A stretch of DNA of 64,000 nucleotides from Galbibacter sp. BG1 (GTDB lineage: Bacteria; Bacteroidota; Bacteroidia; Flavobacteriales; Flavobacteriaceae), in the NCBI RefSeq assembly GCF_013391805.1, contig NZ_CP058364.1, forward strand, positions 806,501-870,500. The letters run 5' to 3'. The translations under genes were made by a program, and so were the position numbers. This document shows positions 40,653 through 41,821 of the stretch, piece after piece. Position 1 is the stretch's first letter. Every line of letters begins with the position of its first letter. The notes under the pieces are model-generated. The model was not told the DNA's origin. It did not search any database and worked only from the letters and a program-made list of their open reading frames with translations.

Positions 40653-40724
40653 TGCGGGTATGGTGGTCCCGAAGCATCGGGAGGTAGACCTGTCTGCCGA
40701 CAGGCAGGCACGCTAGGAAGGACA
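40653..40724 (+). pseudogene. tRNA-Leu 5'-half remnant with two inserted palindromes
   Basis: GCGGGTATGGTGG matches the first 13 bases of the tRNA-Leu at 40777 with one change. The sequence then carries a 16-base palindrome (TCCCGA-AGCA-TCGGGA) where the D-loop should begin, resumes with GGTAGAC, carries a second, 20-base near-palindrome (CCTGTC-TGCC-GACAGG-CAGG), and resumes with CACGCTAG. The anticodon arm is lost. It cannot make a working tRNA. The first palindrome is of the same kind as those in the array at 40941-41748. Confidence 0.7.
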
Positions 40725-40776: not shown

Positions 40777-40858
40777 GCGGGTGTGGTGGAATTGGTAGAC
40801 ACGCTAGACTTAGGATCTAGTGCCGCAAGGTGTGAAGGTTCGAGTCCTTTCACCCGCA
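40777..40858 (+). tRNA. tRNA-Leu (anticodon UAG)
   Basis: Acceptor GCGGGTG pairs with CACCCGC. The anticodon stem CTAGA/TCTAG holds loop CTTAGGA with anticodon TAG. The long variable arm (GTGCCGCAAGGTGT) fits a class II tRNA. The T-arm is GAAGG-TTCGAGT-CCTTT. The 3' CCA is not fully encoded. It lies about 135 bases after the promoter at 40606. Confidence 0.95.
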
Positions 40859-40862
40859 CAAA

Positions 40863-40890
40863 AGCTCTCAAGAAATTGGGGCTTTTTTTA
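40863..40890 (+). terminator. Terminator of tRNA-Leu, copied in the downstream array
   Basis: AGCTCTCAA pairs with TTGGGGCT around a GAAA loop (one bulge, one G-T pair), then seven T. The same hairpin recurs in six of the seven array units. Confidence 0.75.
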
Positions 40891-40940
40891 TGGAATAAAT
40901 CCAACGGTAGAACGAATTAAATAAATAATCAAAACAAAAT

Positions 40941-41748
40941 GCAAGGTGTAAGGTTCCCCCGAAACGTCGGGGCTTTCACACGCACAAAAGCTCTCAAGAA
41001 ATTGAGGGCTTTTTTTATGGAATAAATCCAACGGTAGAACGAATTAAATAAAAAATCATAACAAAACACAAGGTGTGAGGTTCCCCCGAAGCGTCGGGGC
41101 TTTCACCCGCACAAAAGCTCTCAAGAAATTGGGGGCTTTTTTTATGGAATAAATCCAACGGTAGAACGAATTAAATAAATAATCAAAACAAAATGCAAGG
41201 TGTAAGGTTCCCCCGAAACGTCGGGGCTTTCACACGCACAAAAGCTCTCAAGAAATTGAGGGCTTTTTTTATGGAATAAATCCAACGGTAGAACGAATTA
41301 AATAAAAAATCATAACAAAACACAAGGTGTGAGGTTCCCCCGAAGCGTCGGGGCTTTCACCCGCACAAAAGCTCTCAAAGAATTGAGGGCTTTTTTTATG
41401 GAATAAATTCAAGGATGGAACGAATTAAATAAAAAATCATAACAAAATGCAAGGTGTAAGGTTCCCCCGAAACGTCGGGGCTTTCACACGCACAAAAGTT
41501 CTCAAGAAATTGGGGCTTTTTTTATGGAATAAATCCAACGGTAGAACGAAATAAATAAATAATCAAAACAAAATGCAAGGTGTAAGGTTCCCCCGAAACG
41601 TCGGGGCTTTCACACGCACAAAAGCTCTCAAAAAATTGGGGGCTTTTTTTATGGAACAAATTCAAGGATGGAACGAATTAAAATAAAAACCAAAACAAAA
41701 CACAAGGTGTGAAGGTTCCCCCGAAGCGTCGGGGCTTTCACCCGCACA
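40941..41748 (+). repeat. Tandem array of seven tRNA-Leu 3'-half units with palindromes
   Basis: Seven units start at about 40941, 41068, 41195, 41322, 41449, 41575 and 41702 (period 126-127 bases; the last is partial). Each begins with the variable-arm and T-arm sequence of the tRNA at 40777 (GCAAGGTGT...GG-TTC), in which the T-loop is replaced by CCCCGA-AACG-TCGGGG or CCCCGA-AGCG-TCGGGG. It then resumes the T-stem and acceptor 3' strand (CTTTCACCCGCACA or CTTTCACACGCACA), the terminator hairpin and an AT-rich spacer. Two head types alternate in the order A B A B A A B. Units 1 and 3 are identical. The tRNA's own 3' half acts as unit zero without the palindrome. Confidence 0.93.
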
Positions 41749-41821
41749 AAACGAAAGACCTTTTTAATTGTAAATTAATTAGTTAGGTATTTTTTATTTT
41801 TTAGTTTAGTCAATAAAATAA

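Follow-up and report, generated by a model that had tools for sequence, protein, structure and literature searches.

Downstream of an intact tRNA-Leu(TAG) gene in Galbibacter sp. BG1, the 3' part of the gene recurs seven times in tandem, each time with a palindrome set into the T-loop, and the question raised by this locus is what the repeated units are and how they came to lie beside a complete tRNA. The window referred to below is the whole stretch of 64,000 nucleotides that was analysed.

Anatomy of the tRNA-Leu(TAG) locus

A single tRNA, the tRNA-Leu(TAG) at 40777-40859, was found in the window by both ARAGORN and Rfam, and it is the sole Leu-TAG gene among the tRNAs located in the genome. 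The only tandem array reported in the window by Tandem Repeats Finder lies at 40847-41751 (period 127, 7.1 copies, 91% matches). Together with the alignment of its units, this array confirms the original prediction of seven palindrome-bearing tRNA-Leu 3' units after an intact tRNA-Leu. The features of the locus are as follows.

40654..40717, + strand: tRNA-Leu 5' fragment (acceptor 5' strand and D-arm), an ORF-less unit of D-loop type; GCGGGTATGGTGG..GGTAGAC..CACGCTAG matches the tRNA 5' half
40667..40682, + strand: palindrome TCCCGAAGCATCGGGA within the 5' fragment, read from the sequence
40689..40708, + strand: palindrome CCTGTCTGCCGACAGGCAGG in the D-loop, immediately after GGTAGAC (sequence; genome-wide count)
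40777..40859, + strand: intact tRNA-Leu(TAG), the putative rebuilt target gene (ARAGORN; Rfam RF00005, 60.7 bits)
40860..40940, + strand: terminator hairpin and spacer, the non-tRNA part of the first unit; AAAAGCTCTCAAGAAATTGGGGCTTTTTTT, then a spacer that recurs in later units
40941..41748, + strand: seven hairpin-tagged tRNA-Leu 3' fragments, ORF-less units of T-loop type, 126-128 bp (Tandem Repeats Finder; unit alignment and identity matrix)
40957..40972, + strand: hairpin 1, type A, CCCCGAAACGTCGGGG (unit alignment, as for hairpins 2 to 6)
41084..41099, + strand: hairpin 2, type B, CCCCGAAGCGTCGGGG
41211..41226, + strand: hairpin 3, type A
41338..41353, + strand: hairpin 4, type B
41465..41480, + strand: hairpin 5, type A
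41591..41606, + strand: hairpin 6, type A
41719..41734, + strand: hairpin 7, type B, preceding the most distal, probably original, tRNA 3' end; no unit-type terminator follows

Each unit consists of a 3' part of tRNA-Leu whose T-loop contains CCCCGA-A[A/G]CG-TCGGGG. The palindromes start at 40957, 41084, 41211, 41338, 41465, 41591 and 41719, with spacings of 127, 127, 127, 127, 126 and 128 bp; a unit length of 126-127, as first proposed, is thus mostly right, the spacing in fact being 126-128. The exact pattern CCCCGANNCGTCGGGG occurs seven times in the 3.7-Mb genome, and since all seven copies lie within the tRNA-Leu array, chance is excluded. The layout of the unit is GCAAGGTGT.AAGGTTC - palindrome - CTTTCAC(A/C)CGCAC. 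The T-arm and acceptor 3' strand named in the original prediction are therefore present, but the description was incomplete, as tRNA sequence is kept on the 5' side of the T-loop too, which places the palindrome inside a tRNA fragment. The palindrome takes the place of most of the T-loop and lengthens the T-stem into one long hairpin, which is paired in both unit types at -15 to -21 kcal/mol, compared with -11 for the normal T-arm region.

Over 127 bp, units 1 and 3 have exactly the same sequence, and the hairpin types follow one another along the array in the partially alternating order A B A B A A B. Divergence is greatest in the distal units 6 and 7, with unit 7 the most diverged. Units 1-6 close with a terminator-like hairpin; unit 7 lacks the unit-type terminator that had been ascribed to every unit and continues directly into an unrelated flank (CACAAAACGAAAGACC...), which is probably what would be expected of the original displaced tRNA end. 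Neither a GIY-YIG ORF, of the kind found at the related loci described below, nor a recognizable remnant of one is present in the 127-bp units of the window, so the array can be at most a non-autonomous derivative of such an element. No terminal inverted repeats or target-site duplication were recognized by eye in the unit alignment, and in the Rfam search the units fall below the RF00005 gathering score, with only the intact tRNA-Leu matching.

Upstream of the intact gene lies a feature absent from the original prediction, a 5' half of tRNA-Leu with two palindromes. Its layout (40654..40717) is that of the tRNA-Leu(CAA) 5' fragments located upstream of GIY-YIG ORFs. The D-loop pattern CTGTCTGCCGACAGGCAG has two copies in the 3.7-Mb genome, both in tRNA-Leu 5' fragments; the second occupies the same D-loop position in a tRNA-Leu(CAA) 5' fragment, which is followed by a small GIY-YIG ORF and then by an intact tRNA-Leu(CAA). 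Three sister species share this arrangement of fragment, ORF and tRNA-Leu(CAA), and one of the three has the GIY-YIG unit twice in tandem. The other palindrome of the 5' fragment, the 16-mer TCCCGAAGCATCGGGA, recurs in Galbibacter mesophilus, where it occupies the T-loop of a tRNA-Phe fragment.

Hairpin-tagged fragments at other tRNA genes and in related species

A genome scan listed 40 tRNA genes, and a search of their surroundings revealed neighbouring tRNA fragments at at least 11 of them (Val, Gly(GCC), two Thr(TGT), Ile, Lys, Phe, Met, Arg(TCG), Leu(CAA) and Leu(TAG)), and in most of these fragments a hairpin takes the place of one arm. A GIY-YIG ORF is located between fragment and tRNA at Phe, Met and Leu(CAA), and what looks like a decayed one occupies this position at Arg(TCG), while the tRNA-Gly fragment carries TCCCGATACTTCGGGA in its T-loop and has no ORF. 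The original prediction held the units to be of no known gene type, and the open-access literature searched yielded no account of GIY-YIG units inserted in the tRNA genes of bacteria. The same anatomy recurs at many tRNA genes together with a GIY-YIG gene.

The nearest anatomy to the window array is found at the tRNA-Phe locus ∼1.1 kb upstream of the start of the window, where an intact tRNA is followed by a terminator, a GIY-YIG ORF and a 3' copy with TCCCGATGCGTCGGGA in the T-loop, and where a second unit is truncated. The junctions of the two loci are alike, GGTTC-TCCCGATGCGTCGGGA-CTGG at tRNA-Phe and GGTTC-CCCCGAAGCGTCGGGG-CTTT in the window, and the hairpins are near-identical. A second ORF-less tandem array follows one tRNA-Thr(TGT) at ∼1.863 Mb (positions 1560-2080 of locus L150), with units of ∼130 bp that comprise the tRNA-Thr 3' end, a terminator and the composite hairpin GGGACGAGAAGCCTGTCCCGATCG..CATCGGGGAGTCCC.

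Two further observations concern the hairpins themselves. Several ORF-less 3' fragments at tRNA-Ile, -Lys and -Thr (L135, L137, L141 and L150) have hairpins that open with the motif [G/A]CGAGAAG, and the recurrence of this motif at different tRNAs suggests a second hairpin family. At another locus (L102), the GIY-YIG reading frame continues at its C terminus into the tRNA fragment that follows, and part of the palindrome of that fragment is thereby translated (..RPRGATEYLPAGRQGAKFEL).

Comparison of the syntenic tRNA-Leu(TAG) locus in sister species revealed seven units here, one in Galbibacter mesophilus and none in two other species, with the upstream M20 peptidase gene as the common flank of the compared loci. 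A search for the 127-bp unit that covered 250 genomes of the family gave nothing but terminator-like matches outside Galbibacter sp. BG1; the array itself is thus species-specific. A search for an ORF-bearing parent through the unit spacer, carried out in all fetched loci, returned only Galbibacter mesophilus, and no ORF-bearing unit of the T type was found at any tRNA-Leu(TAG) among the loci examined. The tRNA-Phe unit of Galbibacter mesophilus is itself tandemly repeated, with hairpins TCCCGAAGCATCGGGA and TCCCGAAGCGTCGGGA. At the tRNA-Leu(TAG) of Galbibacter sp. EGI 63066, several tandem tRNA-Leu 5' halves, one with the D-loop palindrome, precede an intact tRNA of other sequence, a pattern that would result if an incoming copy had taken the place of the tRNA.

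Arrays of both kinds of unit occur in Psychroflexus. A tRNA-Ser array there contains one GIY-YIG unit mixed with four ORF-less units, which provides the strongest single support for the window array being an ORF-less form. The same genome, that of Psychroflexus curvus, contains the largest ORF-bearing array, with eight tandem GIY-YIG units of ∼364 bp; this array lies behind a partial tRNA-Met-like sequence, and ARAGORN found no intact tRNA in the stretch.

GIY-YIG proteins and their link to tRNA genes

The nuclease ORF of the tRNA-linked loci encodes 80-95 amino acids and amounts to a bare GIY-YIG catalytic domain, leaving little room for a separate DNA-binding domain. PF01541 was matched by 14 of the 14 aligned members, and Tyr5, Tyr16, Gly18, Arg26, His30 and Glu62, which we take to be the GIY-YIG active-site positions, are invariant in the alignment. 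The nearest solved structures by sequence are UPF0213 (1zg2 and 1ywl), followed by SLX1 and then I-TevI.

Small GIY-YIG ORFs were located by profile in 59 genomes of the order together with the genus, giving 121 loci, a few of which are overlapping fetches of one place. A tRNA lies within 500 nt of the ORF at 43 of the 121, mostly at 0-170 nt, in one of two geometries: either the tRNA is ∼40-60 nt upstream of the ORF and a 3' fragment follows the ORF, or the tRNA is 0-20 nt downstream of the ORF and a 5' fragment precedes it. The D-loop, anticodon arm or T-arm of the fragment is replaced by a hairpin, with the anticodon arm replaced in fragments of Arg(TCT), Val, Pro and Asp (for example, by TCCCGATTTGTAATCGGGA in Arg). 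Across the tRNA-linked loci of all samples, 72 of 100 fragments contain a hairpin with a stem of at least 6, the corresponding figures being 19% for random windows taken from these loci and 9% for the fragments after shuffling; by this simple test, 28 of the 100 have none.

Two samples selected by protein similarity alone show the same proximity, which confirms the link between GIY-YIG proteins and tRNA genes. A tRNA lies within 300 nt at 54 of 80 named loci, on the same strand at 53, in a sample that was drawn with an alignment of His-type GIY-YIG proteins and is biased to their relatives; several of the remaining loci are at contig ends. In the phylum sample, 128 of 198 genomes have a protein profile match, and among the best 30 loci, for which adjacency was checked, 25 have a tRNA within 300 nt, a few of these loci being shared with the order survey. 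Loci adjacent to tRNAs were also found beyond Bacteroidota, in Ignavibacteriota, Neomarinimicrobiota and two candidate-phyla genomes, all of them metagenome bins of unsure assignment.

A maximum-likelihood tree of 126 GIY-YIG domains, based on only 92 columns and with many weak forks, was split at its midpoint. Of the 63 proteins in one half, 52 are beside a tRNA, compared with 0 of the 63 in the other. Within the tRNA-linked half, proteins associated with the same tRNA and the same arm tend to cluster (Leu D-loop; His T-arm; Arg(TCT) and Val anticodon arm; Met anticodon arm; Phe T-arm), with 16 label changes as against 49 for shuffled labels, where the arm labels were assigned by hand and part of the clustering reflects near-identical tandem copies.

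In the tRNA-free half (L108, L114, L119, L264 and others), inverted repeats of REP-like character, namely CTGAGCTTGTCGAAG, TCGAGCGCAGTCGAGA and the CGTC-type GACGAAGCAATCTC, often lie on both sides of the small GIY-YIG ORFs. Inverted arms of at least 14 surround 31 of 86 GIY-YIG ORFs, compared with 7 of 275 control intervals.

Origin of the array and its relation to known systems

The array probably represents a non-autonomous form, devoid of a nuclease gene and amplified in tandem, of a GIY-YIG mobile element that inserts into tRNA genes and restores them. In the mechanism that we infer, a small free-standing GIY-YIG nuclease from autonomous copies would cut one arm of a tRNA gene (D-arm, anticodon arm or T-arm), and repair would put in a segment made up of the rest of the tRNA, a terminator, the nuclease ORF or a spacer, and a hairpin. 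The tRNA would thus be rebuilt, while the displaced half would stay alongside with the cut arm swapped for an unrelated hairpin, which would no longer fit the target and would protect that half. The tRNA-Leu(TAG) of the window may have been struck both in the D-loop, giving the 5' fragment at 40654, and in the T-loop, giving the 3' fragments, whose unit would then have multiplied to seven. The identity of units 1 and 3 and the alternation of A and B units point to unequal recombination as at least part of this last step; in general, ORF-less units might be mobilized in trans or multiplied by recombination. Against the GIY-YIG element stand the missing ORF, the spacer shared only with Galbibacter mesophilus, the negative search for an ORF-bearing T-type unit at tRNA-Leu(TAG) and the 28 fragments without such a hairpin by the simple test; moreover, the rebuilt tRNA should stay a target. 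In addition, all seven copies could derive from one unit by unequal crossing-over, for which recombination suffices, so the array does not imply present-day activity.

The alternative that survives best, although we regard it as unlikely, is that a decayed tRNA copy acquired a palindrome and was duplicated by unequal crossing-over or replication slippage without ever being moved by a GIY-YIG element, its likeness to the ORF-bearing units being convergent or very old. The relations among units that point to recombination fit such a history, as do the missing ORF and the confinement of the unit to Galbibacter sp. BG1 and Galbibacter mesophilus. It is opposed by the hairpin, which sits at the same loop junction and has almost the same sequence as that of the GIY-YIG-bearing tRNA-Phe fragment of the same genome, by the tRNA-Leu 5' fragment, in which the palindrome seen in the D-loop of GIY-YIG elements occupies the identical position, and by the recurrence of such fragments at many tRNAs.

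It is considerably less probable that the units function as small RNAs that imitate a tRNA 3' end, each with a stabilized T-arm and a closing terminator, and perhaps serve as decoys for tRNA-binding enzymes. The stable pairing of the hairpin in both unit types and the terminator-like ends of units 1-6 would suit this role, but because a terminator follows each fragment the units would depend on read-through, none of them was scored by Rfam, and their copy number varies from 0 to 7 among sister species.

The remaining two alternatives, both raised in the original prediction, are very improbable. The interval from the T-loop to the tRNA 3' end is a usual target of tRNA-targeting tyrosine integrases; however, tandem attachment sites were rejected on finding no integrase among the seven neighbouring proteins checked with Pfam, a hairpin that breaks the shared tRNA block, with the block continuing on its 5' side, 5' fragments in addition to 3' ones, and a 127-bp spacing that leaves no room for cargo. 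REP palindromes spread into a tRNA remnant by a RAYT transposase, for which the shortness of the palindromes and two Y1 transposase matches in the genome might speak, were likewise rejected, as the genome-wide searches showed the palindromes to be undispersed (one with its seven exact copies all in the array, the other present twice, in tRNA-Leu fragments) and the sole two Y1 matches to lie at 1.35 Mb, ∼0.5 Mb away. Of the repeated duplication of a tRNA 3' end with a REP-like palindrome that the original prediction had proposed, the anatomy stands and the REP-like character is not supported.

Beyond this locus, it is an evenly balanced question whether these loci represent a class of minimal mobile element in which a single-domain GIY-YIG protein would recognize one arm of a given tRNA gene, by DNA structure or sequence, insert tRNA-rebuilding units of 0.1-0.4 kb and tag the displaced half with an immunity hairpin. 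The window would then hold a high-copy non-autonomous array of a class common in Bacteroidota and present in a few other phyla, and sister clades may mobilize CGTC-type REPs. If this is true, a common and overlooked parasite lives on the essential tRNA genes of a large bacterial phylum and rebuilds its victim; puzzling tRNA fragments and tandem small GIY-YIG genes would be explained, compact nucleases specific for one tRNA arm would be on offer, and there would be a testable lead on the mover of the CGTC REPs (PMC3733652).

Among known systems, the closest experimental precedent is SegB of phages T4 and T6. This free-standing GIY-YIG enzyme makes its cuts within tRNA genes, and the tandem amplification of tRNA-containing units, via recombination, depends on it (PMC13096335). 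The loci described here share with it a GIY-YIG gene adjoining tRNA genes, and tRNA-gene cutting and amplification of tandem tRNA units are the SegB features to which the proposed mechanism corresponds. SegB differs in being a phage gene for which neither a hairpin-replaced arm nor a rebuilt chromosomal tRNA is described, whereas the GIY-YIG proteins of the present loci consist of the bare domain and a nuclease gene is missing from the window array. The published SegB motif, RAWTSGAAC (PMC13096335), is the reverse complement of GTTCSAWTY and by our own reading would fit the T-loop of many tRNAs, a word that the paper itself does not use. In a motif scan it was present in some intact targets of the T type, such as tRNA-Phe, and absent from the array and from tRNA-Leu(TAG), which differs at one position.

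REP/RAYT systems and CGTC-tagged REPs resemble the present units in that short hairpins are multiplied in a genome and non-autonomous copies outnumber the enzyme gene (PMC3733652). They differ in that the window palindromes are confined to tRNA fragments and the linked enzyme is a GIY-YIG protein, not a Y1 transposase. The CGTC REPs "apparently lack a dedicated transposase" (PMC3733652), and the tRNA-free GIY-YIG clades are candidates for their mobilization. Islands and ICEs with tyrosine integrases also insert in a tRNA gene, rebuild the tRNA and leave the displaced end in place, whereas here no integrase is among the neighbouring proteins checked, the units measure 0.1-0.4 kb, the end is hairpin-tagged and both 5' and 3' versions exist. 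As with MITEs, short ORF-less copies have end features in common with elements of their genome that do carry an ORF; the common feature is a loop hairpin inside a tRNA fragment, and inspection by eye identified no terminal inverted repeats or target-site duplications. UPF0213 and SLX1, the latter a structure-specific nuclease, are the closest solved sequences; the tRNA-linked proteins form a separate half of the local tree, and nothing here connects a function of UPF0213 or SLX1 with tRNA genes.

In a comparison with homing endonuclease genes, the ORF-bearing relatives carry a GIY-YIG domain with the conserved positions, and units differ in presence or absence at the same target, tRNA-Leu(TAG), between close relatives; the window array has no nuclease gene inside the element. 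Replacement of an arm in the fragment would be consistent with homing-type removal of the site, yet the rebuilt tRNA keeps the arm. An intact tRNA beside a partial copy with the D-, anticodon or T-arm replaced by a hairpin is common to the window and the other loci, and we place these hairpin-tagged tRNA elements with the homing-type selfish nuclease elements, the chances being even, in our judgement, that they deserve a class of their own.
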